A DNA stretch of 64,000 nucleotides, taken from a virus. The stretch is taken from positions 186,001 to 250,000 of IMG/VR virus record IMGVR_UViG_3300033049_000066. One strand, written 5' to 3'. The translations under genes and the position numbers were made by a program. Positions 9,659-48,295 of the stretch are shown here, piece by piece. The notes under the pieces are model-generated. The model worked only from the letters and a program-made list of their open reading frames with translations. It searched no databases and was not told where the DNA came from. The stretch's first letter is position 1. Each line of letters starts with the position of its first letter.

Positions 9659-9687
9659 TTGACCTTTGGTGTTATATGTCATATAAT
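9659..9687 (+). promoter_or_regulatory. early sigma70-type promoter (leader type A), first of a tandem
   Basis: -35 TTGACC 9659-9664, -10 TATAAT 9682-9687, spacing 17, followed by the type A leader (GTATATAACAGTTAG). No gene follows it before the second promoter at 9743. Confidence 0.85.
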
Positions 9688-9817: not shown

Positions 9818-10957
9818 ATGTCAGAACATCGCCAATTAACAGCCAAAGAAGTACGTAATTCAATCATGCGCTGTTTCGCAGTTAAACGTCCAGCATTTAT
9901 TTGGGGTCCACCAGGTATTGGCAAGTCAGAATTAGTTGAAGGTATTTGTACCGAATTAGGTGGCGCTATGTATGATTTGCGTCTGGGCCAAATGGAACCA
10001 ACCGACATTCGTGGTATTCCTTTTTATAACAAAGATGCCGGTATCATGGATTGGGCACAGCCTGTTGATTTACCACAAGGTGAACAATTAGTTATTGACG
10101 CATTGCTTGATAACGTTGGTGAGCACGATGAAACCACTAAAATTAAAGATATGCCGGTTGTAGTGTTGTTTCTTGATGAAATGAACAGTGCTCCACCATC
10201 GGTGCTTGCGGCTGCTTATCAGCTTATCTTAAATCGTCGTATTGGTAAGTACAAACTTCCTGAAAACGTCGTTATTTTAGCTGCTGGTAATCGCGAAAGT
10301 GACAAAGGCGTTACATTCCGTATGCCAACTCCGTTAGCTAACCGTTTTGTCCACTTTGAAATGAAAGTTTCATTCGACGATTGGTTTGAATGGGCAGTTA
10401 AAAATAACATGCACAAGGATGTTGTTGGTTATTTGAACTTTGCCAAGCAAGATCTGTATGATTTTGACGCTAAAAGCTCAAGTCGCGCATTCGCAACACC
10501 ACGCTCTTGGGCATTCGTAAGCGATTTAATCGCAGATGACAGCTTAGATACTCGCACTGTCACTGACTTAGTCGCTGGTACTGTAGGTGAAGGCTTAGCT
10601 GTGAAGTTTGTTGCGCATCGTAAGGTTGCTAGCAAAATGCCTAACCCGAGCGAAATCCTCGAAGGTAAGGTTAAAAAGTTAGAAGTACAGGAAATCTCAG
10701 CAATGTACTCGCTGGTGGTATCTATGTGCTACGAGCTGAAAGCAGCTATCGACAATGGGGTAAAAGACAATGAATTCCACGCCATGGCAGATAACTTCTT
10801 CCGCTTTATGATGGATAACTTCGAAACTGAGCTGGTGGTTATGGGTGCTCGAGTGGCACTTACCACTTATAACTTGCCGATGTTACCTACTAAGCTTAAG
10901 AACTTTGACGAGTTCCACGAGCGTTACGGAAAGTACATCATTAACGCTAGCGACTAA
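9818..10957 (+). CDS. MoxR-type AAA+ ATPase
   Basis: 379-residue AAA+ ATPase of the MoxR branch. Walker A GPPGIGKS is at 30-37, Walker B is VVLFLDEMN with the DE pair, the sensor 1 region is LAAGNRE, and an arginine-finger region (PLANRF) follows. MoxR ATPases usually act with a VWA-domain partner to remodel or activate protein complexes, and such a partner is encoded at 11435, one small gene away. A good ribosome site (GGAGTAGGA) precedes the ATG. Two early promoters in tandem drive it, and two strong hairpins follow the stop. Its codon use has fewer rare-looking triplets than its neighbours, and it may be strongly expressed. Confidence 0.9.
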   Translation: MSEHRQLTAKEVRNSIMRCFAVKRPAFIWGPPGIGKSELVEGICTELGGAMYDLRLGQMEPTDIRGIPFYNKDAGIMDWAQPVDLPQGEQLVIDALLDNVGEHDETTKIKDMPVVVLFLDEMNSAPPSVLAAAYQLILNRRIGKYKLPENVVILAAGNRESDKGVTFRMPTPLANRFVHFEMKVSFDDWFEWAVKNNMHKDVVGYLNFAKQDLYDFDAKSSSRAFATPRSWAFVSDLIADDSLDTRTVTDLVAGTVGEGLAVKFVAHRKVASKMPNPSEILEGKVKKLEVQEISAMYSLVVSMCYELKAAIDNGVKDNEFHAMADNFFRFMMDNFETELVVMGARVALTTYNLPMLPTKLKNFDEFHERYGKYIINASD

Positions 10958-10997
10958 CCGCTAGCCTCAACAACGAAAGCCGGGGAAACCCGGCTTT
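10946..10997 (+). terminator. double hairpin after the MoxR gene
   Basis: Two perfect inverted repeats. GCTAGCG (10946-10952) pairs with CGCTAGC (10959-10965) around the stop codon. AAAGCCGGG (10976-10984) pairs with CCCGGCTTT (10989-10997) around a GAAA tetraloop. There is no long T-run after the second, so it may be a weak terminator or an mRNA 3'-end stabiliser. Confidence 0.6.
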
Positions 10998-11031
10998 CCA
11001 AGTGGAAATTCTTCAACTTACAAGGTGCAAA

Positions 11032-11370
11032 ATGAACAGAGAAGAAACATTTTGGGGATCATATGATGGTCGTGAAATCCTTGTCAAGGACCTCAAAGTA
11101 CGTCACCTTGTTAATATCTTAAATCACATCATAAAATCAAATAAAACAGACCCTACATCGTACTCATTTGCTGTATTTCAGCTAATTGAGGCGGAGGCTG
11201 CTTTAAGAATAATAGGCGGATTTGCTGAAAATAGGGCAATTCCTAGGAAATTACCCAATGGTACGTATGTTCTTACCAACCAAACCACAGCGGAAAAAGC
11301 AATTGAAGACGCTAAAACCGCAACCCATAACCAAAAATTAGCTGAGAAATACGCGAAAATGTTAAATTAG
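11032..11370 (+). CDS. small protein between MoxR and VWA genes
   Basis: 112 residues from ATG 11032 (AAGG upstream). The N-terminal part has DGREILVKDLKVRHLVNIL, the middle is helical, and the C-terminus is Ala/Lys-rich. It has no recognised family. Its place between a MoxR ATPase and its VWA partner suggests it may belong to the same system, but the region downstream is restarted by a new promoter, so this is only a hint. The stop TAG lies inside the next promoter motif. Confidence 0.6.
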   Translation: MNREETFWGSYDGREILVKDLKVRHLVNILNHIIKSNKTDPTSYSFAVFQLIEAEAALRIIGGFAENRAIPRKLPNGTYVLTNQTTAEKAIEDAKTATHNQKLAEKYAKMLN

Positions 11371-11373
11371 AGG

Positions 11374-11402
11374 TTGACCTCTAAGGCTAAATGTCGTATA
11401 AT
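11374..11402 (+). promoter_or_regulatory. early sigma70-type promoter (leader type B)
   Basis: -35 TTGACC 11374-11379, -10 TATAAT 11397-11402, spacing 17. The -10 region and leader match the copy at 7176. Confidence 0.88.
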
Positions 11403-11434
11403 AGTTATATAAGTTAATAAACAGGAACAAAATT

Positions 11435-12721
11435 ATGTCAGATCATACTACAGCAAGCAAAGACACAAAAAAAGCACACGGTGACCTATTAGGTCCTACG
11501 GACCCGGCGGTTGATTATGATGCGCGGGAAAAGCTTATTGGCGCTCGTGTGTCGTTGCTGCTAAAACAGGCATTTTTCGGCAACCTAGCTACACGATTAA
11601 AGCTCGTAAATGCTGATGAATGGCTTCCTACGTTAGCCACAGATGGTCGGCACTTTTACTATAACTCACGCTTCGTAAATATGTTGGACCAAAAAGAGAT
11701 GGAATTTGGCTTTGGTCATGAGGTTCTACATTGTGTATATGATCACTTTGGCCGTCGTGATAATCGTGATCCCCAGCTTTGGAACATTGCTAACGACTAT
11801 TGTGTGAATACTGATTTAGTCGATCACAATATTGGTCGCAAAATTACAACTATTGAAATTTTATATGATCGCAAATACAAGGGCATGCCATCTGAGGAAG
11901 TTTACGACCTCCTGAAGGAAAATGCTGAGTACATCGACATGGATGATCTCCTTGACAAAATGTTAGACGAGCATCTCGATGGTGAGGGTGATGGCGAGGG
12001 TGATGGTGATGGTAAGGAAGGTGAGGGCAAAGGTCGTCCGAAGATCACGAAAGCCATGCGCGACGAAATCCGAGATGAATTTAAGGAAGCTGTAATCAAC
12101 GCCGCAAGCAACGAGCCAAATGCAGGCAATATCCCCGGCAATGTTAAAAAAATGCTAAAGGAACTCACCGAGCCGCAGATGGACTGGCGTGAACTGCTTA
12201 ACTTAAATCTTACATCAGCAATTAAAGATGATTATACTTGGATGCGCCCTTCACGCCGAAGCTGGCACATGGATGCAATTATGCCGGGCATGAACCCAGG
12301 TGAGGCTATCGACATTGCTGTTGCTATTGACACATCTGGTTCAATTAGCCATAATATGCTCCGCGACTTCCTTAGTGAAGTGCAAGGTTGTATGGAATCA
12401 TTTACCGCTTACAAGATACATTTATTCTGTTTTGATACTGCTATTCATAATCCAGTACAATTCAATAGTGATAACATCATTACACTCGAAGAGTACGAAA
12501 TGGGTGGCTTTGGTGGTACTGATTTTGAACCAATTTTTGAATACATGAAAGAACATGAAATTGAGCCCGAGCGCCTAATATGTTTTACAGACGGCTATCC
12601 GTTTGGTAGCTGGGGTGATGAGGATTATGTAGATACGCTTTGGGTTATACACGGTAGCACCAGCATTGTTGCACCATTTGGCACCACAGCTTATTATGAC
12701 GAACATAAGAACGATAAGTAA
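11435..12721 (+). CDS. VWA-like protein with metallopeptidase-like domain (MoxR partner)
   Basis: 428 residues in two domains. Residues 30-170 look like the putative metallopeptidase domain that often precedes VWA-like domains: FGHEVLH, with HEVLH at 95-99 as a HExxH zinc motif. A Gly/Asp/Glu-rich linker covers 181-200. The C-terminal von Willebrand A-like domain has the MIDAS motif DTSGS at 299-303, with GGTDF and FTDGYP further on. MoxR-plus-VWA pairs act as chaperone-like machines. Proteolysis is possible given the intact HExxH but not shown. It has its own early promoter. Confidence 0.85.
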   Translation: MSDHTTASKDTKKAHGDLLGPTDPAVDYDAREKLIGARVSLLLKQAFFGNLATRLKLVNADEWLPTLATDGRHFYYNSRFVNMLDQKEMEFGFGHEVLHCVYDHFGRRDNRDPQLWNIANDYCVNTDLVDHNIGRKITTIEILYDRKYKGMPSEEVYDLLKENAEYIDMDDLLDKMLDEHLDGEGDGEGDGDGKEGEGKGRPKITKAMRDEIRDEFKEAVINAASNEPNAGNIPGNVKKMLKELTEPQMDWRELLNLNLTSAIKDDYTWMRPSRRSWHMDAIMPGMNPGEAIDIAVAIDTSGSISHNMLRDFLSEVQGCMESFTAYKIHLFCFDTAIHNPVQFNSDNIITLEEYEMGGFGGTDFEPIFEYMKEHEIEPERLICFTDGYPFGSWGDEDYVDTLWVIHGSTSIVAPFGTTAYYDEHKNDK

Positions 12722-12844: not shown

Positions 12845-13042
12845 ATGAGTAATATCACAGTGCGAACGGATGGCATAATTAATAATCGACTGTCAGATGA
12901 TGAATTTATCGCGATCGTAGAGCAGATCTTCGGCAAGGACTACACGTTGGACGAGTACATTAATATGTACAATGATGCGAAGCGGGCGAAATTCGGCGGT
13001 ATCTCTGTACACCGTGAAAATGAGATTGAAAGACACGCATGA
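12845..13042 (+). CDS. small protein of unknown function
   Basis: 65 residues with GGAG seven bases before the ATG. An N-terminal strand (ITVRTDGIINN) is followed by helices with LSDDEFIAIVEQIFGKDYTLDEYI. It is not obviously part of the paralogue family that follows. Its end overlaps the next start by four bases (ATGA), so it is coupled to that array. No function is known. Confidence 0.6.
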   Translation: MSNITVRTDGIINNRLSDDEFIAIVEQIFGKDYTLDEYINMYNDAKRAKFGGISVHRENEIERHA

Positions 13043-13314
13043 ACAGTAAGGAAAAAGATTCAATGCGGAGTCGGCGGATCCTTTGGCCGTGTAACGATGG
13101 TACCGCAAATGTATTTGAGTTGCCGGGCAATGACATGGTATTTAAAAAGATACTGCGAGAGTGGCTTGCTACGCACAGCACCGGTAGATTTTATCTTGGG
13201 CACAATGTTTTATGTTTATACAGTCGCAAGGACGCGACCGCATTCAAGATGTTTGACGTTATTGCAAAGTGTAAGGTCGAATATGAACTAAAGAAAATAA
13301 GTGTTCCGTCATGA
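13039..13314 (+). CDS. tandem small paralogue 1
   Basis: 91 residues, the first of five neighbouring genes that share a pattern. A helix ends in WL, then a TGRF motif (STGRFYLG), a beta-strand, and a C-terminal DA..FKM segment (KDATAFKMF). The start overlaps the previous stop and the stop overlaps the next start, which implies coupled translation. Similar short proteins occur in other myoviruses with unknown function. This copy has an extended basic N-terminus and a longer C-terminus than its siblings. Confidence 0.65.
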   Translation: MNSKEKDSMRSRRILWPCNDGTANVFELPGNDMVFKKILREWLATHSTGRFYLGHNVLCLYSRKDATAFKMFDVIAKCKVEYELKKISVPS

Positions 13315-13547
13315 TTTCAGGGGCTTTAACAAAAAGTGTGGAATTTCGGATTGCCGGGCGACGACTGTGGATAACAAACCAGTATAATATGAAATTAATT
13401 ACGATTCAAAGGCGGTATTCTCGCACTGAGATATTGACATGGCTAGACAAGTATACAACAGGTCGGTTTTCCCTTAGCAGCACTCAAATTGCATTTGAAA
13501 ACGAAGCAGATGAACTTATATTTAAACTAGGATTTGACAATGTTTAG
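13311..13547 (+). CDS. tandem small paralogue 2
   Basis: 78 residues and the clearest member of the array: EILTWLDKYTTGRFSLSS, then IAFENEADELIFKLGF. The pattern W-x(5)-TTGRF followed by FE-x(3)-DE-x-IFKL is shared with copies 1 and 3-5. The ATG overlaps the stop of copy 1. It was likely derived by tandem duplication. Function is unknown. Confidence 0.65.
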   Translation: MISGALTKSVEFRIAGRRLWITNQYNMKLITIQRRYSRTEILTWLDKYTTGRFSLSSTQIAFENEADELIFKLGFDNV

Positions 13548-13773
13548 GCCACTTTCTTGCAAGGTTGAAGATGAGATCGCCCGTAGATGGCTAGTTGACC
13601 CCATTGAGGACGGGCAGGATTATCCAGTACGAATTCCAGATAATATGACCCGCGCGGAGGTCGTTGCAAAAATTCACAAATTTACAACCGGTCGGTTTTA
13701 TACCGAGGGCAATATCATACAGTTTGCCAAAGAGCAAGATTGCGTCATATTTAAATTGTGCGCAGGCACATAA
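13540..13773 (+). CDS. tandem small paralogue 3
   Basis: 77 residues from ATG 13540, which has AGGA seven bases upstream; a TTG at 13534 is less likely. It contains KIHKFTTGRFYTEGN and DCVIFKLC, matching copy 2 in spacing. It overlaps the end of copy 2. An N-terminal stretch with WLVDPIEDGQDYPVRIPDNM is specific to this copy. Confidence 0.63.
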   Translation: MFRPLSCKVEDEIARRWLVDPIEDGQDYPVRIPDNMTRAEVVAKIHKFTTGRFYTEGNIIQFAKEQDCVIFKLCAGT

Positions 13774-13776
13774 GAT

Positions 13777-14010
13777 ATGCGAACATACGATTTCGAAGAT
13801 TTTAGTTCCAACTGTATCCAGGTGAGATTTACCTACCCAGTAGACATGATAGCCTCACTAGATGCGATGAATGGAACTACAACTGATAAGAGAAAAGACA
13901 TCGAGCTGTGGCTTGCTGAGAACTGTAACGGATTGTATCTCGTCATGTTTACGGTGGTAATTTTCGAGGAAGATGCTGATGCGATTATATTTAATTTAAA
14001 ATACGGGTAG
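13777..14010 (+). CDS. tandem small paralogue 4
   Basis: 77 residues. The motif is degenerate here: ELWLAENCNGLYLVMF replaces WL-x(5)-TGRF, but FEEDADAIIFNLKY keeps the C-terminal pattern. It starts three bases after copy 3. The loss of the TGRF arginine suggests divergence or a changed ligand. Confidence 0.6.
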   Translation: MRTYDFEDFSSNCIQVRFTYPVDMIASLDAMNGTTTDKRKDIELWLAENCNGLYLVMFTVVIFEEDADAIIFNLKYG

Positions 14011-14015
14011 GCATT

Positions 14016-14282
14016 ATGAATGTAAAAGACATCAATCCAATGGACTGGCACAATACAAAGCAACTAAATTTTATTCCAGCACACTTCACGCAATTCACTT
14101 TTAATCACAATGAGGAGCGCCTAAGAGTCTTAGCATGGGCTGAGCAAAATATCGCTGGGCGATTTGCCATTGAGGCCATTGTCGACTCTAATAAAACGAT
14201 GCACTGGCTAGTGGATTTTAAATATCGTATCGGGTTTGAGAATCCTGCGGATGCTACAATGTACGCGATGTTTTTTAAATAA
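14016..14282 (+). CDS. tandem small paralogue 5
   Basis: 88 residues. It has VLAWAEQNIAGRFAIE, then an insertion of about 15 residues, then GFENPADATMYAMFF, which lines up with the FE..DA..FKL pattern of the other copies. It is the last gene of the array; 75 bases without a gene follow. Confidence 0.6.
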   Translation: MNVKDINPMDWHNTKQLNFIPAHFTQFTFNHNEERLRVLAWAEQNIAGRFAIEAIVDSNKTMHWLVDFKYRIGFENPADATMYAMFFK

Positions 14283-15389: not shown

Positions 15390-15716
15390 ATGAAATCTGA
15401 ACTGAGTGACAAAGAAAGATTAGACGGGTGGGAAACATTAATTAATTCGATTGAGAAGACAGATATTCCGATGGAATTTATTCGTAATATCAGTATAATG
15501 TTTCACGCCCCGGTTGAGAATGACAATGAACAAGATATCAACATTCAACAGTTTCGAAAAGACGGTTTTGACGATAATGGGCTTGAAGAGATTGTAGCCG
15601 AGGTTTTTAAAGAGCACGACAATAATATTAAAGCCGTACATTTTTATTTAGACGTTGAGCATGTTGCGAACGAAGTGCAAGCGCAAACTAACCAATTACT
15701 AAGAGGATTACGATGA
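15390..15716 (+). CDS. conserved phage protein, function unknown
   Basis: 108 residues, acidic. DIPMEFIRNISIMF at the N-terminus and a C-terminal helix (EHVANEVQAQTNQLLRGL) resemble a protein that commonly follows the previous gene in related phages. It overlaps the DHFR start by four bases (ATGA). No role is known. Confidence 0.62.
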   Translation: MKSELSDKERLDGWETLINSIEKTDIPMEFIRNISIMFHAPVENDNEQDINIQQFRKDGFDDNGLEEIVAEVFKEHDNNIKAVHFYLDVEHVANEVQAQTNQLLRGLR

Positions 15717-16174
15717 AATTAATATTAGCATGTGAGAGAAATGGTGGTATCGGGCACCGAAGCTCGATGCCGTGGCCCAAGCAAGACAAAGACCTAGCAA
15801 GATTTAAAGAACTTACACTTGGTACAACAATTCTGATGGGACGTGGGACCTGGGAAGCAAAAGGCATGCCTAAGCCGTTGCCCGATAGAAAAAACATCGT
15901 TGCCAGTAGTACCGACCTTGATTTGCCAACAGGTGTCGAGCAAATTAAAAATCTAAGTGGTGTGGATCTTTCGCACGTTGACTGGTGCATTGGTGGCGCG
16001 ATCCTTGTAAAATTACTATGGGATCAATTCACAGAAATACACCTAACCCGCATCTTTGGCGAATACGAATGTGATACAAAAATAAATCTCGAGCTTCTTG
16101 AGCGAGATTTTTATAGTTTGCGATCACAACTGTCACTAACACATACCTATGAAATTTGGCGGCGGCGAGATTGA
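15713..16174 (+). CDS. frd: dihydrofolate reductase
   Basis: 153-residue DHFR that reduces dihydrofolate to tetrahydrofolate, feeding thymidylate synthase two genes downstream. Visible features are the N-terminal strand and GGIGHRSSMPW, the acidic residue in KDLARFKELT, TTILMGRGTWE (the NADPH-binding region, G-R-x-T/W in place of the usual GRKTWE), and CIGGAILVKLL (the GG motif of the cofactor site). AGAGGA precedes the ATG. The length is typical. It overlaps the next reading frame. Confidence 0.9.
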   Translation: MKLILACERNGGIGHRSSMPWPKQDKDLARFKELTLGTTILMGRGTWEAKGMPKPLPDRKNIVASSTDLDLPTGVEQIKNLSGVDLSHVDWCIGGAILVKLLWDQFTEIHLTRIFGEYECDTKINLELLERDFYSLRSQLSLTHTYEIWRRRD

Positions 16175-16687: not shown

Positions 16688-17578
16688 ATGAAACAATATT
16701 TACAAGATCTTAAAAATATCATCGAGCACGGACAAGAGCGGATCAACAGGACCGGCACTGACACTGTGCAACTCTTCGGCATGCAGACTCGGTATGATCT
16801 ACAGGCTGGTTTTCCCGCGCTGACTACAAAAAGATTGGCGTGGAAATCCGTCGTATCTGAATTGTTGTGGTTCCTTGAGGGCAGTGGAGATGAGCGGCGC
16901 CTGTGTGAAATTCTACACGGCAGTACTAGCGCTGAGAAAAAAACTATTTGGACCGCAAATGCCGAGGCTGGGTATTGGAAACATAAGGCAAAATTTACTG
17001 GTGATCTCGGGCGAGTGTACGGGGTGCAATGGCGGCACTGGCAATCGTTTGACAGCCTCACTCCTGATCACGAAGGTGGGCTCATGTCGGGTCGGATCAC
17101 AGAAGTTGATCAAATCGCGAATTTGGTGAGAAACATTAAGAATGATCCATTTGGTCGGAGGCATTTGCTCACAGCATGGAATCCCGGCGAACTCGACAAC
17201 ATGGCGCTACCTCCGTGTCACTTGCTGGCGCAATTCAACGTCACAGCGGATGGTAATCTTGATTGCCAAATGTACCAGCGTAGTGCAGATTTCCCCCTTG
17301 GTGTTCCCTTCAATATCGCCTCGTACGCGCTGCTTACGCACATGTTGGCGCAGGTTTGCGGGCTCGGGGTGGGCGATTTTGTACACGTTGTCGGGGATGC
17401 GCACATCTATAAGAATCAGATTAGCACCGCAGAAGAACAGATTTTGCGTGAGCCGCTAGAATTACCAGAGCTTTGGTTGAACCCTGATATTACAGATATT
17501 GATGATTTTAGCACAGCTGACATAAAATTACTCAATTATCGGCATCATCCTAAGCTGAATTACCCATTCTCTGTATAA
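16688..17578 (+). CDS. thyA: thymidylate synthase
   Basis: 296-residue ThyA that methylates dUMP to dTMP using methylene-tetrahydrofolate. The catalytic cysteine is Cys177 in LPPCHLLAQF, with the dUMP-binding QRSADFPLGVPFNIASYALL segment after it, DRTGT-like RTGTDT near residue 21 and HVVGDAHIYKNQ near the C-terminus. GAGG precedes the ATG. With DHFR upstream this completes the phage dTMP-synthesis pair. No intron is visible, unlike the T4 td gene. A rho-independent terminator follows. Confidence 0.96.
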   Translation: MKQYLQDLKNIIEHGQERINRTGTDTVQLFGMQTRYDLQAGFPALTTKRLAWKSVVSELLWFLEGSGDERRLCEILHGSTSAEKKTIWTANAEAGYWKHKAKFTGDLGRVYGVQWRHWQSFDSLTPDHEGGLMSGRITEVDQIANLVRNIKNDPFGRRHLLTAWNPGELDNMALPPCHLLAQFNVTADGNLDCQMYQRSADFPLGVPFNIASYALLTHMLAQVCGLGVGDFVHVVGDAHIYKNQISTAEEQILREPLELPELWLNPDITDIDDFSTADIKLLNYRHHPKLNYPFSV

Positions 17579-23419: not shown

Positions 23420-26400
23420 CTATGGTTTTATAAACAGTGCTGGCACTGTTGATTGATCTTGTAACGGTACTCCATTACTTGCTGTGATTGCGCCAGAAGC
23501 ATACCATATTTGATCGTAATTCCATGGCACTCGTCCTTTAAGACTGACGTCACCTACAATATCGCCTGCTAGGTGCGCAGTGGCGCCTGTTCCCGCTGTT
23601 CCGCGGCGCAAACCACTAACTGTGTTAGCTAACAAATCTTGCTCGCGGTACGTAATTCTCTCTCCGTTAATTATTATTATGCCGAATTTTGCTGCTGTTA
23701 AATCCGGTGTACCAAGTACACTCGCGTCTGCTACATAGATAATGTCGTCCGACAGTGACAAATCTTGTGTAAGGTACGTTGAGGTTGTAGATGCCATCTT
23801 GTACATGCCGACGGTGTCTCGCATGTCTTTAAATAATCTGAAGGTTGATCCTGCTGTGATCACGTTTTCTGTAATTGACGTTACTACCACCACATCAGTT
23901 ACTGAAATTGTCGGACCGGCAATAACAAGTTGATTATCATTTATAATACTAAAACCGGTGCCTGGGTGTATACGGTTGCCGTTTAGTGTAACCCATAATC
24001 GATCTTGCGCAATAATAATGTCACGGTCTAACGTGAATACGTTCACAGATGCGTTGGCTCCAATGACAAAGTCGAAGTCTTCAGTGTCGAAGCTTGCTGA
24101 GTCAAACGCATTTAGTTCTTCAACGGATGCTATAGTTGGCCCCTGATACACTTGCGTTAAAATGTCCAGCTCCCGGAGGTCGCGGAAGGTGGTTACTGCA
24201 ATCTGATCACTTCCGGTGTACGTGTTGGTGAACAGAATTTCTGTACCACTGTACCAGTATTCGGATGATGTTCTTACGTACACTTCAACGGTATCGCCTG
24301 CGGCTGGCGCAGTGCCTAGGATCACATATCGATCTACACCAAGTGGACCGGTGACATAATCAATGCCGGATGCTAGCAACGTATCGTTAACGTAAACATC
24401 AACTTCGTTGTCTGCTACTGCGTCGCCGCTGTACCCGCCATTCAGTGGGTATAGGAAATTCGTAGTTACACCGTCGGCAGTGGTCCGGGCGGCGCTAGGA
24501 GGACGTAATCGTGACCCGTTAACCTCAACAATAGCGTTATGACGAGACTTACCTGTTACTGAAGTTCCTGGGTCTACTGTTAGGTCACCTGTCCACAGTT
24601 CAACAAGTGGATAGCTTTCTTCAAAGCCACCAGTTGATATCCCAAAGATCGTCACTGTGATGAAATCTGTTGGGCTTGGCGCTGCTGACAACGTAAGAGT
24701 TGACGTTTGATCATCAACTGCTGTTATAGTGACACCAGCATCTTCGACGCCGTTAACAAAGACAAGTGCTTTATTGATTTCAGTGCTGCGCACGTCTACT
24801 GTGAACGCATTTGCAGTGGTATCGCTGCCTCGTAGTGAATTTCTGTATAATTGATTTCCGCCACCTACTTCGTACACAATTATTTTAATATCGTCACCAG
24901 CGGTAATACCGCTAATTATATCAATTTCTTGATCGGCCCAGTCAACTGTGAAATCGAGTGTTTCGTACAGTGTAAGTCCGGTTGTTATATTTGCTACTAT
25001 CACAGTTATCGGGTGAGGTACTGCGTCAGCAAAGGAGAATGATTCTGTGCTTGCGTTCACTGTGTAGGAAAAGCTACTCAGCGCGAAAGCGTGACCATCA
25101 GTAAGATAATCCGAGCCGGGACGAGCGAACACTTTGATGTCAAGTGTATCGTAGATGGCTCCCGGTACCAGCTCTTCCGGCGCGTGAGAATGAAATTCGT
25201 CTACAAAGGCTCCGCCATCTACGTTGATATCTTCAGGCCGGGTTCCGAGATAGGTATCAAGGAATTGACTTTCGTATATTGTGTCAAGCTCTGACTCAGT
25301 TACGCTAAATGTGTCTCCGTCAACTTGGACTCCGGGGAACGAAATACCATTGAACAGAAGTGATAAATCTAGTCCTGGACGATTAACATCCGAAACATAA
25401 AATCCAGTGGTTCTGTCAATGCCGCTAAGTGTTTCGAGTTCAATTTCTACGTACTTAGTTGAAAGGAATGTTGTTGTATCCTCAAATGTAATCATATTAT
25501 AAACTTTATTATTATATCTTACAAAATTTCTTGACTCGCTGTTATTGTTTTCATTTACTATGACTCCGTCAAGTTCGTACCAGCTTGCGATACCTTCTTT
25601 AAGGTACTTTATTTCTATTGCATCTAATCCGTAAGCTGAGTCAGCTGTAATGCTGTGTATGCTACTAATAGCAGAGATGCTATCAACATCCGCCGTTAGC
25701 ACTATTGAATCAGCAGTAAAAATATCCGAGGCTGCGGTTCCTGCTACGATCTCGGTGGATCCATCTGCTGTAAGAATGATAGTATCAGCTGTTGGCGTAA
25801 CGTACGATCTTGTACCATCTTCGGATGTGATATAAGCTACTTCCTCAAACTTAGTCGGATCAAATACTGTGTTATCATCGGTGTCAGTGTACAGGGTGGT
25901 TACTCTAAACAACTTAGGCAATTCAATCACCGAGCCAGTTGGTTCTGGATTCGCGTTAGATATTGACGCGGTTGCTGTAAATGTTGTACCAGCATTGCTA
26001 CTTGTTGCGCCGGCTGCTAAGAAATTTGTGTTTCCTGGGGCAGCGATTTTGTACTCTGCTCCGATGATTAATTCTAGTAGCTGTGGATCAACTGCTGTGG
26101 GGTCGTACTGCACAATGTCTTTTGGTCCGCTATATTTAAATACTAAATTGCGTGTGCTCGTAACGGTGTTTTCTTCGTATTGCGCAACTTTAGACACGTA
26201 CTCATATCTATCATATTTTGCAGTAACTTTGAATGTTCTTACGAGTGCGTTCTCCATGATTGCGGTCGCTGCGGCGTCAACGCCTGTGCTGCCCGTGAAC
26301 GAAATTGTCGGCGGTGTTAAGTAGCCGCTGCCGGGGGTGACCACTACAATCTCACTAATTATACCACCTGGTCCGAGAAGTGCGGTCATAACTGCTGGCG

Positions 26401-29400
26401 ATGTGCTTGCGCCGGTTACTACAACCTCTGGCGCAATTGTGTAGCCGGTTCCTGGATTTGTAACCACTACACTTTTAACGGTTAATTTGTAATTATCGTA
26501 CCATTCACTCCAGGGTGGTGTCTGCCACACTATGTCGTCAGCTGGTTTATTGCTCGGATCGCTTACTAGTACCGCGCCGTCATCTAAAATTGGGCTAATG
26601 TACTGGTCAAACTCGGTACTAAATGTCGACGGACAATCAAAGTCAGTGACAGTACCAGCAATTAGATCAAACCCATCATAACTTAACGAAAAGTCTTTAA
26701 TCTTAGTATGATACGGCTTTGCTTCGCCTAAGTACTGAGTTAAATAATCTTGGTTATCTTTCTGATATACCGCGTACTGTGATAATGAACGTACTTTTTG
26801 TGTTACGTCAATTAAGCTTGTTTTAATTAACCAATCGACATTTGGTTGTTCACCGAGTACATAGTTAAAGATAGATAACATTGTGCGACTACGGTCGGTC
26901 GCTAAATCACTAATTAATAACTCTTCATTAATTGATCGAATAACGTTACGTAATTCAGTTACTGGAGTTGAAATAGTTGTCCATAGTCTCTCATCAAGTT
27001 GAATTGTACCATTTTCCAGCGCCGTTCTAACCCATGCACCGTCGATATATTGATATAGTTCCCAGCTGCCAACACTATTAAACGTTACTTTCGCAACAGC
27101 ATTATTTTCAATTATGCCTAAGGTTGCTAGCTCAGTGAATTCAGTTACTACAAAATCTATTCTCGAAAATGGATCGAATCCTTCTTTGTACCAGTTCACA
27201 GTAGACCAGTATTGCGTAGTGTCGTATTCTTGAACGTCGATTTGCAGTAGTGTCTCAAATGTCAGCGACGCTGTAACTTCGTAAATTGCCCATCTTCCGG
27301 AATTGTTATCATCTGTAGTAACAAGATATTTAAACCCTGTGCCAACTGCTGTGAAATCTTGAAATGATAATTCTGTGGTGGACGCGACTTGTAAGTCCCA
27401 CGCTCCAGTCGATGCGGTCGGTATTGCCTCTTCGCTCTCAAGCATCGGGTATGCTCGTGATTCAGTTATTGTGTTGCTAGCAAGAATGCCATTTACTTTT
27501 TTCAAGTAACTTGCTATTGCGGCGTATCTATCAATAAACATTGTTTGGCGAGGACGGAACTCAACACCGTATCTCTCAGCGGATGTTAACCCGGTGGCCG
27601 GAACAATGTTTCCATCGGTGTCGATGCCTACTAAGCTATCTTGTAATTTCTTATACAATCCGTCGGATAAAAAATCGTTTGGATGATTTTCGCGGAATAA
27701 GTCGTACTCCACAAACACATTATTCTCATTTTTGATCTTAGAATACTCAATGTGGATGATTGTATCTGTGTTATTAATTATATCCTTGCAGTTATAAATT
27801 CCGATTAAATTCGGTGCGACAAATGCCAAGAACGATATGCCGGAACTCTTAGGGGCTTCGATGTACGAAGCTACAGCAGCGGCGCTCAATGTCTTCTCGG
27901 AGTTCACGCTAATTGTCTCAACGTTGCGGACCCAGTAGTAATACACGTTCTGCAATAGACCTGAGCGGTCTATTGTTGATACTGTAACATATTTGTCTTC
28001 TGCTAAAATTGTACCGGTACCGGCATAGTTCGCCGGTAGTGCGGTACTCTCAGTCCACTGATAAATATCTACAGTGCTGCCAGTGAATGTTCTGCCCCAC
28101 ACTTTGCTAGTCTGATGTGCTGTACCTGTTGTGTAGTCTCGGAAGCGTACATTTTTTATATCCCACCACATTTTTCCAACTTGGTCTGCGCTCCATAATA
28201 AACCAGCACTTGCGTTATCATAAACAGTTGGGTCATACGGCGTAATAAAATCAATATTCTGACTTGCTGCTCCTAATATCTTGCCGTTCAGCGGGTCGAT
28301 ATAATCCAGATCGCGAATCACTGACAGTGAATCATTGTTGTACATATATACCGCATTAATTAAGGTAACGTCAACTTGATCGTTTTGTGTATTGGATGCG
28401 ATCCAACTAAGCGTATTTGCTGTATTGTTGAATATAACAACACGACCAATATTCGGCCGCCCGCCGCTTGCTAGTACATCATCTTCATCAGCTGTTGTAA
28501 ATGTTTGATCTGCAGTGACACCGCTGGTTGTCGCAGTGTTTAAATCGTAATTCATTGCCGAGACAACTAGTACGCCATCTATTAAACTAACTGCGCTGCC
28601 AAAGGCATCGCCTGTGTACATATCAGTGTCTAATATTTCTTGTCCGAGCAGTAGCATGTCGGACGTTATATCGCTTCCGGACATTAAATCATACGTATAA
28701 ACTACACCAGTATTCCCAGACGCATCAGTTGTAATAAGTCCGTTGTCTGCTGTAGATGATGTTGTGTCGGCAGAGGTCGAAATGTTATCGCCAATTCCAT
28801 CCGGAGTACCTACTGCTAACTGATCTAATGATAAATCAAGTGCTAACGAATTACCAAAGTGCTGTGCGACAGTGGTTGTAACCGGACTTGTTATTGTTTG
28901 CGCTATCGCGTACGGAGTAAATCCTAATGTTACTAACGAAATATTTGCACCAGCTAAAATATCTAATCTGTTTGGATTCAATCGTACAATTTTATTTGTT
29001 AGTTGGATCGTCAATAATCCATTAGCTTCGCTTGCGTCAATGTTTGGTATTGCGGCGGCATTAATTGCGTCAGCTACTAACAACGATGTTCCTTCGAATG
29101 GCAATGCTACATCAACATTGTTAATGCGAATTGTGCTGTTGGCTGGAATTAACGGATTTGCCACGGTGCTAGTTAGTGTTCCGTATGTTCGTGATTTGTT
29201 TTCAAAGCGTGATACTGTGCCTTGTCCGCTTAGATCTCCGTCGGCACCGACATACAATGAACATTTTGTCTTACAAATTGCTAGTGAATTTGTTGCTGAC
29301 ATGCCCGGCACGGCCAAGTCTTGAATTAGCTTGAACTCCGCTATGTCAACTTCTAAGGAGTCACCAGCTTCGGCTGTTCCAGTGACTATCGTCACTACAT

Positions 29401-32400
29401 TACCAGCAATCGTAAACTCACTCGCATCTAGTGCTACACCGTTATTTAACACGGTGCCAAGGGGAGTGCGCAAGGTAGTGTAAGCTAGTGTGCTTGCGTC
29501 TGTGATAACAAAGCGTTCTACGACCCGGTTAATTATGAATGCTTTTTCAATTGCTGGTGCCGCAATGACAATGTGACGTGCGTCTGTTGATACGTCAATT
29601 GCCGCACCAAAGTCATCACCACTTGTAAATGCTACACCGTTGTTCGCAGTGTTGTAGTCAATTGTTGATACAAAAACAAATGTACCAGATACATTCTGAT
29701 ATGTGTGAACTTCGTTGTTTAGTGGTTCGCCGACAAACAGCCATTCTTCATCCTTACTCATCGCAATACTGGCGCCGAAGCTATCTTCAACGTCTACAGT
29801 ATAGTTAGGACTAACTAAGGTTTGTGTTTGTGTAATAGTGTTTAATGTCGCGTCTCGATTAATAATTTCAACGGAACCAGGTGCCGGTACGGCGTTTGCT
29901 AAGACTAGGCTATCAGCAGTCGGCAATGTCGCATCTGCGGTGGCGCCTGCGGTGGTGCCGGTGGCTGCGATCGCACCCCAAGTCTCAATTAGTGTTACAG
30001 CTGATCCATATTGTAGAACTGGTAGCGAACTGCTTGGCAAAAGTGTTTGTACAAAGGTATAGACATCGTTCGCTTTACTATATAAATGCACGACACCAGA
30101 GTCGCTAGCTGGATCACCAACTAGCATACCGCTATCATTGTACCCCTGGGCAACGCTGTAGCCGAATCTTGTGCTAGTATCTTTTGGGTTAATTTCCGAG
30201 TCGGCTAGTGTAAATGGCGACGTTTTCTTGTACACCGCTGTCTTACTGTTATCATTGTTAACCCAGACTGTATCGGTTGCGGAAAGATTACTGTCAAAAA
30301 TTGTACCGACTATACTACTAGGTACTTCAACTCTTGCTGAGATAAATTCTAACAGTGTGCCGGTTTGATCCAGTACGCACGTTTGATTGTTTGCAAGTGC
30401 GCCTTTGATTACAACCTCAAGTACATCCGGTACGCTTAATACTTTATAGGTGCCTGTGGCCTGTGCATCGGTGTTAGATACATTAATAGTTGTGTCCAAT
30501 AGTAAGTTATGTGGGATATCTGTAACTAGTGTCAAGGTACCATCTAAGTTGTCTTCAATTGTAACAATTACCGCGTCGATTTTTGTTGCGTGGTACACAT
30601 TCCAGTCGACTTCCGTATCTTTTGCTACCCATATTATGGATCCGTCGACTACGGTGACAGTCGAATCTATCTCTGAGATTTCAAACACCGCTATGTCAAC
30701 ATCATCATCTTGGACGAAGCCTGCGGTTGGCAGTGCTGTGTCGTAGTTTGTTTCGTTAAGTGTTGTAAAGACCGATGTGCTAAGGTGCTTTACACTCTGC
30801 TTGTAAATGTCGTCTAAGTTAATTAGCATGTCACTTTTAGACGTGCTATTTGTTACGTCAACAATTTCGACAAGACTCGGGTTGCTAGTAAGTTGCTGGT
30901 CGTCTAATTGTAAATCAATATATGCCCGTGTGCTAGTAGCACCGTACTCGGCGCGTTTGATTGCCCAGTTTTCAAATATTGAATAGTCAACCGTTTCATT
31001 GTTTAACGTGACATCTTTAAATAAAGTTAAGCTCTTTGGGGTACCTTTTGTTTCGATTAAATTACTATAAATGTTTACTTGACTAATATCATCTAAGTCT
31101 AACGCAAGTAAATAATCACGAGATCGGAATCCGGTAAGCCCGTACGCCATTAAGTCGATGTCGGTTTCTAAATTTGCGGTCTTGTTGTTGTAGTATTCTA
31201 ACATCTGATCGGACTTAGTCGCTAAGTTAGGCAATAAACCTTTGTTAATGCTATCGTAATCTGTTTTAATCCATTGACTAAAATCAAATGTGTTTGAGGG
31301 TTGAACTTTTTCAGTTGCGCTCCAGTAAGCATTTTTGAAATTAACAATATCGCCTTTGTTATAAGAGCTAACAGGTGCCCATGCTTTAACGTTATCTTCG
31401 TTAATTAAGAATCCCTGCGCGTCAACCTGGCCGTTCCATTCAAATGTTGTAAATCCTGACAGATTTACACGCTGCTGTCGGATTCCGGTAACCGGGTCGT
31501 AAATTAAGTCGTTAAATATGCTAATGTTATCAAGTACTAATAAGTGTTCAAAGCTAGTTAAATTAAATTTTAAGTAACTAATAATGTTATTGTCGACCAT
31601 TCTAATTTTAAAGTTATTATCGATGCGGTCAACGACGTAGTCACTTATGTCAAGTGGTTCTCTATTTTGATTTTGCGGTTGCTCTGTTAATTCTAAATTA
31701 TTTAAATCGTCGACAATGTGCAGGGCACGTTCAAACTCAATTTCGGTTGCTGACGGGTTGAGGTTAATAATACTGTCAATTGCCCAGCCTTGATCCGACC
31801 AGTATATAAATTCTTGTACCATCTCACCCCAGTTAACGACTTGCGTTGCTTCAACGGTGTTAAATTGTAAACCAGCACGGGTTAAATATTCACCGTAGCT
31901 TATTAAGAATTCACTAACTCCTTGTTTACTAGAAAATACCTGACTGTAAGGCACTAGCTCAAACGCATCAGTGAATTCCAGTGGCACTGCCACCGTGGTT
32001 GCATTGCTGCCGGCGCCGACGCTTATAGCTTTATACTTACCGGTACTAACGGCCGTTTGTATTCGGAAGTACGGATCAGTCGTGCTGTTGCCAGTTACTG
32101 AATACCCACCGTCAACTCTCTGCACAATAACAGATGAATATATAATTTCATCTTGTGGCTGATTCTTATATAATAATAAAGTAAAGCTTTCATCCGGCAG
32201 AAGTAAACTGCTACTAGTACTATCCGGGCTACTCTTATCTGTAAAGATTTTTAAGTTATTTTTATCAGTGAACGATGCCATGTGGTGACATAAGTTCACG
32301 TCTAAATTTGACAGGCTAGTTGCTAATGCCGCTTCGCTGTTGTAGCCGTGATATCTGTTGTAGTCAAGGATCCAATTTATATAGCTGTGCTTCACCTGCG

Positions 32401-35400
32401 ATTCGCTGCTGAGCTCAATTGTTCTCGTGTCAAGGCGCAGACGCTCGTCGTACAAGTACTGCTGAACGGTCGGGCTGAATGCGTAGCGATCTCTGTCGGC
32501 CATTAAGGCAAAGAACTGTGCTGGCTTCGTAAGTGCGTATAGTCTCTGCACTGCGAATGGCCATGCGCTTGATTTTCTCCATGCAGATTCTGCTGGCGCG
32601 TTGTCACCAATTGTCCAAGAACGTTTGAAGTCATTTGAGGTAGAGGTGCTAACCACTGACGTTAGCGGCATCACTAAATTACCGGCTGAATCAACTGGCA
32701 AAATTGACGTTAGCCCTGGACGAACATATCTTGTATCGACACGCTCATTGCCGGGCTCTTTAATTAGACCGGCTTCCATGTCATCCCATAATACTAAGTT
32801 GCCACTAGTGTATGGCGCTGTGCCGTAACTAGTATTCCACCAATCTGGACGCTTTGTCAATCCGACCATTTCCCAAGGGCGAATATGTGGGGAATCTGTG
32901 TCGTAAAAGTAATTGTAGATTCCGCGCCAGTTTGCTTGCTGGAATTTTTCGCCTGTGATTTTGTTAGTGGCGGTGCTGTAGTTCCACGTTTTTTCATCGG
33001 TGGCATTATATTCTTGAGACTTATAATCAATTCTATTCCAGCCCAGCCACGATAATACGCTTGTAGCAGTTATCTGTGTTACTTCATCGATTGTGTATTC
33101 TGTCTGACGGAACACCCCTGGCACGATGTCAGCAGGTTCAATTGGCAGTGTCTCAGTTACCTTTAAATTGTTGTAGATTCGATTTTCAAATTCTAATAGT
33201 ACGTCGTCCCGGAGGTCGCCGTGGGCTACGGTGATGCTGCCGTCGTGTCCTTGGATAACATCAACTGGAGTAACATAAGTATCATCTGTGAATTTTAACG
33301 GTACAAATTTTGGATACATACCAAGTTTTGTTGGCGTGCTTGGCACTGCTGTGCCTAGTGTACTGCTGTATTCATTTACTGTGATAATGTCACCTGTTGG
33401 CGGTATTACCGCCAACGTAATACGAGGACCATCGGTTGCTACGGTGTAGTCTACGTCCTTGGTCAATAACACATTGTTGTGATATACCATCAACGCCTTT
33501 GTGTTTGCTGTAGTGAAATCGTATGTGTTCAGTGTCGTGACGGTCTGTGTACTAATTGCCGTTATTACATGTGCAGTTGATTCGTAATCTAGCCCTGATG
33601 GCAGCATATCCGACCAATAAAAAGCACTTGCGGTAGTCTTTCCGGTGTTTATTTCTTTAATTGCTGCGTCAAGAATTTGGGGTACAGTCATTGTACCTAG
33701 CTCGTTTTCCTCAACCCAATTAATTATTCGATTCTTAAATTTCTCGTACTGTTTAGCCGCAAACTCAATTGAGTTAAAGAAGTTATATTCTTTATTCCGC
33801 AAGAACATTGCGGTCAGTGCCAGCGGTGATGATTGCTGTACTATAAGTGTTCCGTACTTGCTTATTTCTCCAAGGTCTCGTAGATTGTTAGCGCCGTTTA
33901 CTGGACCGACTAAGTCAAATATGTTCTCGGATAATCTGTTATAGTGATTGCGTATAGTACCAAGTGTAAGCAAGGATGTATTCTCATTGAACATATTGCT
34001 TTCTAAATTTGCAGGTATTTCGTAGTAACCAGTTTCACTAATTTCATCGCTGATCACCCTAATGTTTAGTTCAGTTCCGATTTCCGTCTGGGTGCCAAAG
34101 GTAATAACATTGCTAGTAATCGTATAATTCTCTGGGGTTACAAATGCCCCAGTAGCTGAGATTTTTACGGATGGCACTGATAAACTTGCGGATGGAGTGA
34201 TATCTAATGTAATCGGATCTCCGGTGTAAACGGTGTCAAACACCTGAGCCTGATGCGTTGATTCAGCTGATGTTACCCAGCCTGTGTTATTTGTAAACTC
34301 TGTATACGAACTATATTTCCTCACGAATCCGATCGTAATAGATGTGTCCGGCACCAGCACTGTGTCTACAGTGTATTCAAATGTGTCAGTGTACAAATTG
34401 TTTTCAAATACTATGTCGCCAAGATTATCAATGTTCAAATATTGTAATGAGAACCCGAGTATTGTGTCAATTGCGCCGGTGCCCGGCGCATAACTAAATA
34501 TTTTGCTGCCTGCGAACGTTGTATCGTTGTAGATCAATTCATCCGATAATGAATATCCAGCAATGTCAAATATATCAAATAGTGGGGGTTGATTAACTCC
34601 AGTTTTTGCTTGTGACACAACCCACGTTTCGCCGTCAAACGCATACACCGTTCCTTGACGCTCCGTACCTTTAGCAATAATGATTATATCATTAACATCG
34701 CTTGTACCATCAACTATTGGCACTAAATTTATTCGCAGTGTGTTATCGTTGTTGATATCTATAAGTTCAACTTCGTATATTACGTTACGTACTGTTGGAT
34801 CGAGGTCGCCGGCAAAAATAACTCTGCTGCCATTACCTAATTTGTATCCATCTATAAACGCTTCAGGATCACCAGTTGAGGAAGTTGGACTTTCGTATAT
34901 CGCGCCGTTGACTGTTGACAATGCGTCTGTATTATCAAAATCAATAACATGAACGGTATGCTTGCCAATAATGCCGTAATTAAATAGTCTCAAATCTGCG
35001 TCAAATTCAATAATTGGACGCTTTGCTCGTTGAACATTGTCAAGTTCAAGTGTGACGGAGTTGTAATTTGCTGTTGCTACTAAGACGTCAAAGTGAAACC
35101 ATCGGTTGCTACGCGACCAGGCATTTTTGTCTCGGCTGCTGCGGTTGATGGTAAGGTAGTCTTGATCGGCGGGGGTGCTAGAAGTCGCAGCCCATTCCGA
35201 GGAATCCCACGGATTAATGTCCCATGGTTCAGGTTCGCCAACCGCATACGGCTCAGGTACAATCAAATCGCTAACTAGCACTAATTTTATTGCTGTACCT
35301 ACGCCTTCGACGTAGTATTCGTTATCTGCGAATTCCACAGGAAGTACATCTCCGGTAAACCGAACTTTTAGTCCGTTTGTAAAGACTACACCGTTCGGGC

Positions 35401-46266: not shown

Positions 46267-46295
46267 TTGACATGTGAGTACATAGGTGCTATAAT
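46267..46295 (+). promoter_or_regulatory. early sigma70-type promoter of gene 55
   Basis: -35 TTGACA 46267-46272, -10 TATAAT 46290-46295, spacing 17, with AGAGG before the -35, the same pattern as the early-region promoters. Confidence 0.88.
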
Positions 46296-46324: not shown

Positions 46325-48295
46325 ATGGCTAAACGGAAAAAGAATTATTTAAATAACAAGGATATGCTCAAGGAAATTCACCTTAGCAAAATATCATATT
46401 GTGCGTTTACTGACAAGGTAGAGGACAATCAACAAGATTTCATCGTGGAAAGTGCTGACGCGATCTTCGGTACGCAGAATGTAGAGGTTAAGAAAGAAAC
46501 CGAAACCTCAGCTGCGGTTTTTGAAGACATCCCGGTAATACAGCTTGCGAGAAAAGCTAGGGCAGCGAGACTTACAAAATTAGAAATTCCAACTGCGGTA
46601 GAAGATATAGTTGACACAGATATTGTATTTCGTGTAATGACGAACGAACACATTCCACGAGTCCCCAAGAAAAAATCCAAGGCACTACTAGCAAAAGAAG
46701 CAAAGCAAGCGAAATCCGACGCGATTTTTGACGAGCTTATGGATGGCGACGAGGATGGCGACGCTCCTACACCCACCGGGCCTGAGGTTATCTTGATCCC
46801 AATGCGTGTAAATTTTCCACCGTTTTTCCATTACCGGTTGACGGATGAACCGGGTGAACTAAAACTTGTCGGCAAATCCCACTGGCGTGGTGACTTAGAA
46901 ACAGGCAGTTTCAACAAGACCAAGGGGCAAACTACAAACAATCTTGCTATGATGTACATCAAGCTCTGTGAGCGGTACGGCACTAGAGGCAATTGGAGAG
47001 GGTATTGTGTAGATCAGGCCACAGAGGCTCTCACAGACCGTGGGTGGTTATTTGAAAATGAGATTACCGAAAATGATAAAATTTTATCATATAATGGCTC
47101 GACTATGGTTTGGTCTAACATTAATTCTATGTTTCGGGATAATTACAGTGGATTAATGCATAAACTTACATCTCGTAGCATCGATTCACTAATCACACCA
47201 AGTCATAAAATTGTAACCGATAAGGGGTTACTAAAGATTGAATATCTCAAAGAATCAGACCGGGTCGTTGTAATGGGTGATGCTGTGCCTACGGAGTTTG
47301 AGAAAACATACACAGATCAACTAGTTGAATTAGCTGGATGGATCATAACAGAAGGTAATTATCAACCCAAAAAGAAAATTGTTACGATTTATCAAAACGA
47401 AGGTTCTTATGCCGACCGCATACGTAAATGTTTACATAACTTAAATTACTCGTTTTCTGAACGCAAATCTTCGAAATCCGAGAATATTTCATTTGCTATT
47501 AAGAGGAAGTACTGGGATGAAATCACAAATCTATTACCTAACAAAAATCTAACTATGGATTTTATTTTAAAACTTACGTATAATCAACGTGAATTATTAG
47601 TTAAAACAATGGTGGATGGTGATGGACACAGACACGGATTATTAATGCGATATACTCAGAAAAATAAAGAACACATGGATCATTTTCAAACGTTATGTGC
47701 GCTAATTGGGTTAAAATCAAATGTTCATTATGTCGAGAATAAAATGTCATTCGGTAAGCCGGTTAACTATTATGTAACAAATGTGTTTTCAAAACGAGGA
47801 AACTACACACGTGGATCGGCTATCGACATGCACGGTGGGAAAGACAATGGGAGTAGACACGTCGGCAAGGGGAAATTTTTCCACCCCAACAAGCCCACGG
47901 TGCAGTACGATGGTACGGTATGGTGCCCGGAGACTGACTACGGTTGCTTCTTAGCTAGGCGTAACGGAAAAGTATATTTGACCGGAAATACGTACAACGA
48001 TGAAATGCAGGGGCAGGCTTTACTCCAGCTTTCGCAAATTGGACTTCAGTTCAATGAGCTAAAATCGCAGAATCCATTTGCGTACTACACTGCCGCGGTC
48101 ACGAACAGTTTTACCCGGGTCTTAAACATTGAGAAAAAGATGCAAAATATCCGAGACGATATCCTCGAGTCAAATGGGCTCACTCCTAGCTGGACAAGGC
48201 AATACGCGAATGATGCGAAAAAGATGCCCCAGTATGATTACAATCTAAATGATCCCAGGAAGAAAAAGGCCAAAGAAGAGGAACCTAAAACTTAG
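46325..48295 (+). CDS. 55: late-transcription sigma factor gp55, intein-containing precursor
   Basis: 656-residue precursor: N-extein 1-227, intein 228-555, C-extein 556-656. The spliced protein of 328 residues matches the gp55 late sigma of T4-like phages. NNLAMMYIKLCERYGTRGNW continues after splicing into YTYNDEMQGQALLQLSQIG, then NPFAYYTAAVTNSFTRVLNI and EKKMQNIRDDIL, which is the sigma region 2 core that binds core polymerase and the -10 late box. The N-extein carries a long acidic/basic extension (T4 gp55 has 185 residues). There is a strong AGAGGAG ribosome site. gp55 recruits host RNA polymerase to TATAAATA promoters, so splicing could gate all late expression. Confidence 0.88.
   Translation: MAKRKKNYLNNKDMLKEIHLSKISYCAFTDKVEDNQQDFIVESADAIFGTQNVEVKKETETSAAVFEDIPVIQLARKARAARLTKLEIPTAVEDIVDTDIVFRVMTNEHIPRVPKKKSKALLAKEAKQAKSDAIFDELMDGDEDGDAPTPTGPEVILIPMRVNFPPFFHYRLTDEPGELKLVGKSHWRGDLETGSFNKTKGQTTNNLAMMYIKLCERYGTRGNWRGYCVDQATEALTDRGWLFENEITENDKILSYNGSTMVWSNINSMFRDNYSGLMHKLTSRSIDSLITPSHKIVTDKGLLKIEYLKESDRVVVMGDAVPTEFEKTYTDQLVELAGWIITEGNYQPKKKIVTIYQNEGSYADRIRKCLHNLNYSFSERKSSKSENISFAIKRKYWDEITNLLPNKNLTMDFILKLTYNQRELLVKTMVDGDGHRHGLLMRYTQKNKEHMDHFQTLCALIGLKSNVHYVENKMSFGKPVNYYVTNVFSKRGNYTRGSAIDMHGGKDNGSRHVGKGKFFHPNKPTVQYDGTVWCPETDYGCFLARRNGKVYLTGNTYNDEMQGQALLQLSQIGLQFNELKSQNPFAYYTAAVTNSFTRVLNIEKKMQNIRDDILESNGLTPSWTRQYANDAKKMPQYDYNLNDPRKKKAKEEEPKT
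47006..47989 (+). mobile_element. intein with LAGLIDADG endonuclease in gp55
   Basis: 328 residues. The first residue is Cys (C-V-D-Q...), with the block B motif TPSH near intein residue 70. The LAGLIDADG helices are LVELAGWIITEG and LVKTMVDGDG. Block F is VWCPETDYGCFLARRNGK and block G is VYLTGN followed by Thr+1. Gly replaces the usual penultimate His, as in some phage inteins. It interrupts the conserved GNWRGY/TYNDEM junction inside sigma region 2. Class 1 splicing is expected. Confidence 0.92.

Follow-up and report, generated by a model that had tools for sequence, protein, structure and literature searches.

What would a large phage do with a MoxR-type ATPase paired with a protein in which a putative metallopeptidase domain is joined to a von Willebrand factor A (VWA) domain, and at which stage of infection would such a pair act? 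The question is raised by the 64,000 nucleotides analysed here (the window), i.e., bases 186001-250000 of the 293,278-base virus record IMGVR_UViG_3300033049_000066 (G000), in which the two genes are separated by one small open reading frame (ORF). We found that, in the clade of viruses to which this phage belongs, both genes carry a near-consensus sigma70-type promoter of their own, an observation that is new here. To the extent that timing can be predicted from promoter motifs, this supports early transcription of the pair and weakens a purely late role in assembly. We give about an even chance to the reading that the pair is a phage-encoded protein-remodelling protease of the early-to-middle programme, which acts inside the infected cell and not solely in late assembly.

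The upstream gene is predicted to encode an intact MoxR AAA+ ATPase; members of the MoxR family are hexameric AAA+ chaperones. The Pfam families AAA (1.3e-7) and AAA_5 (6.1e-5) match the protein above cut-off, the matches to AAA_3 and bpMoxR fall below it (for bpMoxR, 24.3 bits versus a cut-off of 27), and PHROG 1297, labelled 'ATPase', spans residues 3-375 at 3.5e-96. Midasin was matched at 4e-6 in a phmmer search, and no RavA-specific Pfam family was among the matches at E<=1. When 116 sequences were reduced to 38 at 85% identity, positions G33, K36, D120, E121, N158, R176 and R229 all had a conservation of 1.00; we take these to be the Walker A/B, sensor and arginine positions. Among the PADLOC models, DolB/IetA were matched weakly (0.004-0.005), and no defence model was matched convincingly.

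The partner protein (phrog_1314, 8.6e-110) contains the Pfam domains DUF2201_N, a 'putative metallopeptidase domain' (2.9e-37), and DUF2201, 'VWA-like' (1.6e-19), with the motif HEVLH at residues 95-99 and DTSGS at residues 299-303. Conservation of these sites was calculated from 117 sequences reduced to 55 at 85% identity, after L104 had been dropped and the partial L001 replaced by the full protein of the window. In the peptidase domain, residues H95, H99 and D121 are present in 55 of 55 sequences, and E96 and H104 in 54, the sole exceptions being Q for E96 in Atu_ph07 (L087) and D for H104 in RHEph22 (L116); residues D299, S301, S303, T362 and D386 of the metal ion-dependent adhesion site (MIDAS) are kept in all 55. 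Conservation of this degree indicates that the two motifs are not chance occurrences and, because it is near-invariant, that both metal sites matter in nearly all sampled lineages. The preliminary description, made from the sequence alone, had called a MoxR ATPase with a VWA/HExxH partner whose MIDAS and zinc motifs are intact, and the Pfam and PHROG matches and the conserved residues bear this out; both ORFs were found again at the positions it gave. In the VWA-peptidase of Atu_ph07 (L087, 8271-9491), an exemplar of Iyer et al. 2021, HQILH replaces HExxH; that peptidase may be inactive, and cutting may be dispensable in that one lineage.

VWA domains with a MIDAS bind acidic ligands in a metal-dependent manner, and zincins are HExxH peptidases. 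AlphaFold2 models had a mean pLDDT (predicted local distance difference test) of 79.5 for the whole VWA protein and 82.9 for its N-terminal 180 residues, which were folded alone because the fold search with the whole model tested the VWA part only. In the fold searches, the matches of the C-terminal part were VWA/I domains (Foldseek E of 1.3e-4 and VIA Z of 12.4 at best), and human MDN1-MIDAS and Rea1-MIDAS were listed as well. For the N-terminal model, the best Foldseek match was selecase, a minimal zincin peptidase (E 5.6e-3, none at or below 0.001); a 'predicted zincin-like metalloprotease' and selecase lead the VIA list at Z 5.9, followed by other metallopeptidases. A profile of 19 diverse phage proteins matches MJ1213 (selecase) at 0.0035 and VWA domains such as those of integrin alpha-X (3e-4) and Ro60 (8e-4). 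The N-terminal domain is thus probably a zincin, a call that rests jointly on Pfam, motif, MJ1213 profile match and fold, the VIA Z of 5.9 being modest. RavA, ViaA and CoxE were absent from the displayed fold lists, which is silent on membership, and PADLOC gave no match for the VWA protein at 0.01. It should be noted that PHROG 1314, N4 gp25 and other phage records label this protein 'HNH endonuclease', a name that its Pfam domains contradict and that seems to be an error carried over between records.

A tblastn search of 50,697 phage records detected relatives of MoxR in 816 of them and of VWA in 769, so that at least 47 records match MoxR with no VWA match at that limit. More than half of the matching records are Escherichia, Vibrio, Pseudomonas and Klebsiella phages, and some distant matches cover the VWA part only (e.g., Bacillus phage Goe21 and Staphylococcus phage UFV_DC4). 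Pairing was examined in two samples, (i) the best 80 of 283 confirmed viral-contig loci with a VWA relative, which are mutually related and form one clade, and (ii) 18 annotated phage records, hand-picked from the hit lists. In all but one of the 80 loci (79), MoxR precedes VWA in the same orientation; the remaining locus, L079, starts at the VWA gene. In the annotated records, the two genes are at most 6 kb apart in 18/18 and on the same strand in 16; they are on opposite strands in DrSchubert and Iguana_ER37. PF13203 was sporadic in a phylum sample, with 5/195 at E<=0.001 and 4 above cut-off. Three-gene units, consisting of a large protein, MoxR and a VWA-peptidase in this order, were seen in L124, L127 and L128 (metagenome-assembled genomes of Clostridia, and Allobaculum). 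The large protein has helicase-like PADLOC matches and measures 1118-1144 amino acids (aa) in L128 and L127; we considered these bacterial units as an explanation for the phage pair, which they do not explain.

The pattern TTGAC-N18-TATAAT occurs seven times in the window, compared to 0.03 expected from shuffles, and 48 times in the whole record (44 forward, 4 reverse; 0 and 1 for the reversed-pattern control), and many of the 48 copies have the common spacer TTGACCTTTGGCGCTA..TGTCATATAAT. All seven sites of the window are on the + strand; the tail fibre/baseplate module (19097-46305) is on the - strand. Other window copies of this promoter family are found, e.g., at 2173, 7176, 9294 and 17793, and a further near-consensus promoter, at 46267, lies ahead of the gene for the late sigma factor (46325). 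Searching from 200 bp before to 75 bp after the called VWA start, we found the exact site in 78 of the 80 loci (28/29 at 85% non-redundancy). Upstream of MoxR, the exact site was present in 22 and the relaxed site in 67 of 72 loci; with another way of calling ORF starts, the numbers were 22 and 71 of 75. The corresponding numbers for other + strand ORFs of at least 100 aa are 48 (exact) and 76 (relaxed) of 1012, with 1/204 for other - strand ORFs and, for random 261-bp windows of reversed sequence, 3 exact and 16 relaxed of 20,000. The exact promoter was not found before two downstream families, ThyX (0/64) and a 209-aa family (0/73); among the 18 other most widespread neighbour families, one upstream family had it in 13/35 and the remaining ones in 0 or 1. 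Early expression, as put forward in the preliminary description, is therefore supported by the promoter sites at the level of motifs. The T4-type late motif TATAAATA was uninformative (5 sites in the window versus 4.91 expected).

How does this pair relate to known systems? Judged by its families (PHROG 1297 and 1314), it belongs to an already described kind of phage MoxR/metallopeptidase-vWA pair. The passage of Iyer et al. 2021 (PMC7824862) on such pairs describes them in 'group 2.2' jumbo phages, with ASV44729.1/ASV44728.2 of Atu_ph07 as exemplars, and proposes a role in virion assembly; it does not mention promoters. The two families, the peptidase-then-VWA order and the adjacency of the genes are the same in the window, which differs from the Atu_ph07 copy in having an intact HExxH in place of HQxxH. 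The counterparts in Schitoviridae are N4 gp24 and gp25, which can be aligned over full length (26% identity between the VWA proteins) and are likewise followed by a thymidylate synthase. Both are core genes in the sections of PMC4193335 and PMC7650795 concerned with them, gp25 being recovered by one of three methods in the latter. Unlike the phage of the window, N4 is a podovirus of 70 kb that has RNA polymerases of its own, with which, according to the relevant passage of PMC10925440, it transcribes early and middle genes, and no sigma70-type site was found upstream of the pair in the four Schitoviridae examined (N4, RHEph22, TUMS_P121, HN02). In the archaeal virus ATV, p618 and p892 are likewise a viral MoxR with a VWA partner (text on p618 in PMC4124505), lack a peptidase domain according to the same passage of PMC7824862, and are likened here by description and not by sequence. 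RavA-ViaA, CoxD-CoxE and Midasin (Rea1/MDN1) also work as an AAA+ ring with a VWA/MIDAS partner (PMC7159879, in part); the window pair has an additional peptidase domain, and the likeness is one of working principle. MoxR-vWA ternary conflict systems have a third conserved component, VMAP or a beta-propeller, next to the pair; on this point the analysis yielded the bpMoxR match below cut-off given above. The likeness to selecase MJ1213 and minimal zincins is at the domain level only, with weak scores (root-mean-square deviation 3.8 A over 96 residues for 4qhi_C, VIA Z as above), and the zincin domain of the window is fused to VWA.

Table. Positions of the pair, its promoters and neighbouring features in the window
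Feature	Position	Strand	Remarks
Near-consensus sigma70-type promoter (TTGACC-17-TATAAT), upstream of MoxR	9659..9687	+	Motif scan
MoxR-type AAA+ ATPase (predicted)	9818..10957	+	379 aa; Pfam, PHROG, tblastn
Small ORF, lineage-restricted	11032..11370	+	112 aa; ATG 11032, alternative GTG 11002
Near-consensus sigma70-type promoter, directly upstream of VWA gene	11374..11402	+	Motif scan
Zincin-like metallopeptidase domain and VWA domain with MIDAS	11435..12721	+	428 aa; domains at ~18-165 and ~290-426
Five small diverging paralogues, tandem array adjoining VWA gene	13039..14282	+	Profile matches; association only
Dihydrofolate reductase (context)	15713..16174	+	Pfam DHFR_1 9e-24
Thymidylate synthase ThyA, syntenic neighbour of the pair	16688..17578	+	Pfam 7.6e-101

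The small gene between the two partners had been suggested to encode an adaptor. This idea did not survive comparison, because among the 80 loci relatives are confined to L005 (38%) and L006 (44%), and the gap between MoxR and VWA holds different ORFs or none in the other relatives listed. Used as a query, the gene matched none of the phage records at E 0.1, nor was any viral contig confirmed for it; it is lineage-restricted to the window, L005 and L006, and we reject it as a conserved adaptor. A second candidate role, that of a Midasin-type ubiquitin-like (UBL)/NLE substrate, was attractive because the MDN1-MIDAS/NLE1-UBL complex is among the VWA fold matches. It was rejected as well: Pfam NLE is matched at E=0.037, but the relatives in L005 and L006 do not match NLE.

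A thymidylate synthase commonly follows the pair. In 70 loci the sequence extends 5 kb or more beyond VWA, and 67 of these contain a synthase there, i.e., ThyX in 63 and ThyA in four, never both; the three with neither are L017, L026 and L035. The motif RHR/RQR-x7-S is present in all 65 proteins of the ThyX cluster, and N4 gp30 and S-TIM5 gp053 are ThyX by Pfam. A synthase lies in the flanks of 8 of the 18 annotated records (N4, S-TIM5, RHEph22, 2.275.O, 121Q, GAP32, CBB and XaC1). None is annotated in the fetched flanks, which differ in length, of PA5oct, Atu_ph07, Phosso, SCTP-2, DrSchubert, Iguana, TUMS_P121 and HN02; phage G could not be judged, and the annotations of 2L372X are almost all hypothetical. 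The interchange of ThyX and ThyA beside the pair suggests that synthase function, or at least an expression slot, has been kept.

The tandem paralogues adjoining the VWA gene share the pattern 'W...TG.F....F...DA..F.L', and all five matches of the family profile in the record (E<=0.1) are in this array. Beside the pair, eight tandem paralogues were counted in the record of L005 and seven in that of L006, plus five weak matches and one match elsewhere, respectively; overall, the profile has matches in four of six records and none in G007 and G204. Compared with the gap proteins of other relatives by hhalign, the family gave probabilities of 2-15%, at which homology is not shown; they have no more than a short C-terminal motif in common. 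Two further features of the window may be recorded. The late-transcription sigma factor gene (46325-48295) is apparently split by an intein-like insert at about residues 228-557, which starts at Cys and ends ...LTGN before Thr, with NCBIfam intein_Nterm at only 0.081. Within the tail/baseplate module, a single ORF of 4405 aa occupies 23420-36637 on the - strand.

In the reading of an early-to-middle remodelling protease, the MoxR ATPase, presumably a hexamer, would supply the force, the VWA domain would bind the target, in which an acidic side chain would probably complete the metal site of the MIDAS, and the N-terminal zincin domain could cut the engaged protein. The machine would probably be made early, since in this clade both genes come with a strong host-type promoter, and its arena might be host complexes, or phage replication or nucleotide-synthesis complexes. 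Support from outside the clade, where the per-locus control was 0.00-0.09, comes from 121Q, SCTP-2, phage G and DrSchubert, four of the 14 annotated records that are not Schitoviridae, which have a site scoring at least 11/12 within 300 bp of MoxR. In seven further IMG/VR loci, that score was reached before MoxR in four and before VWA in three. A number of observations weigh against this reading. The 80 loci are one clade and not independent, and because they are kin, Fisher p-values overstate independence. The promoter is not unique to the pair, being frequent also at the one upstream family mentioned above, and promoter motifs are not transcripts. Among the same 14 annotated records, MoxR scores below 11/12 in 10 (10/12 in GAP32, CBB, PA5oct, S-TIM5 and 2L372X; 9/12 in XaC1, Atu_ph07, Phosso and Iguana; no promoter-like site in 2.275.O), and VWA in 13 of 14, phage G alone reaching 11/12. 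T4 gp31 and gp57A are examples of assembly chaperones with early synthesis, and early expression is compatible with an assembly role.

That role is the published explanation, in which MoxR-VWA is a chaperone-protease of virion assembly or maturation, remodelling structural proteins that the peptidase trims; we regard it as possible, if less probable than an early-to-middle function. Iyer et al. 2021 argued from analogy with ATV p618/p892 (PMC7824862, same passage), and ATV p618 is a virion protein that interacts with the VWA protein p892 according to the text seen of PMC4124505. The pair closes a structural gene block in 121Q, GAP32, CBB and XaC1, and in RPP1 it is near a mid-phase structural module (PMC4193335, in the part on that phage). 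The virion table of phAPEC6 (PMC7247149; 62 proteins) includes gp265c, an 'ATPase' of 49.52 kDa with 6 unique peptides and 19.0% coverage, which by mass equals the MoxR of the same-species phage 121Q (49.51 kDa), and the GenBank entry of the PA5oct MoxR has the note 'ESI-MS/MS' (electrospray tandem mass spectrometry). MoxR may thus ride in or on jumbo-phage particles. However, the VWA protein (gp264c by gene order; 54.06 kDa in 121Q) is missing from the 62-protein phAPEC6 table, which may hold co-purified proteins since RecA-like, SSB, topoisomerase and PhoH-like proteins are also in it (PMC7247149), and the PA5oct note stands on that record's structural proteins and on an exonuclease too. Early-type promoters on both genes in our clade speak against assembly as the sole role, as does the timing in N4: gp24 and gp25 are middle transcripts in the relevant part of PMC4193335, so that homologues of the pair are not always late assembly factors.

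Two narrower explanations overlap with an early-to-middle function. One, host takeover or counter-defence as the preliminary description had it, would have the early-made pair extract and cleave a host or defence protein. The early-type promoters fit it, as do the rIIA/rIIB neighbours in N4, DrSchubert and RHEph22 (rIIA in TUMS_P121); neither protein has a convincing PADLOC match, however, the near-core conservation in Schitoviridae (PMC4193335 and PMC7650795, as above) is unlike the patchy occurrence expected of counter-defence genes, and no phenotype turned up in the literature searched, so that we consider it unlikely. We hold it just as improbable that the machine serves to mature or regulate thymidylate synthase or a replication complex nearby. 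The synteny described above points this way, and the phAPEC6 table holds both MoxR and a thymidylate synthase (gp259c, 35.51 kDa, 3 unique peptides; PMC7247149), the 121Q synthase also having 35.51 kDa. Against it stand the eight annotated records with no synthase annotated in the flanks and simple co-transcription, which could hold the synteny because the synthase lacks such a promoter of its own here (ThyX 0/64). The most speculative variant, to which we give little credence, joins virion carriage in relatives with early synthesis: the machine would be a takeover device from the first minutes, pulling apart and cutting a host complex, with the small, fast-diverging tandem proteins as exchangeable target adaptors or clients. 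Our literature searches turned up no experiment on a phage MoxR-VWA pair. In the text available from each source, no passage on the pair was found in PMC9040624 (HH109 RNA-seq) or PMC10925440 (DEV structure), and none on phage N4, Schitoviridae, MoxR, gp24 or ATPase in the CRISPRi-ART paper (PMC11879866); a 2026 jumbo-phage review (PMC13282480) does not mention MoxR, von Willebrand/vWA, metallopeptidase or chaperone.

The pair is kept in many large phages and is core in N4-like phages (the core-gene sections of PMC4193335 and PMC7650795). Given the promoter evidence, assembly as published and an early role can be distinguished directly, for which N4 in laboratory E. coli offers a tractable case.

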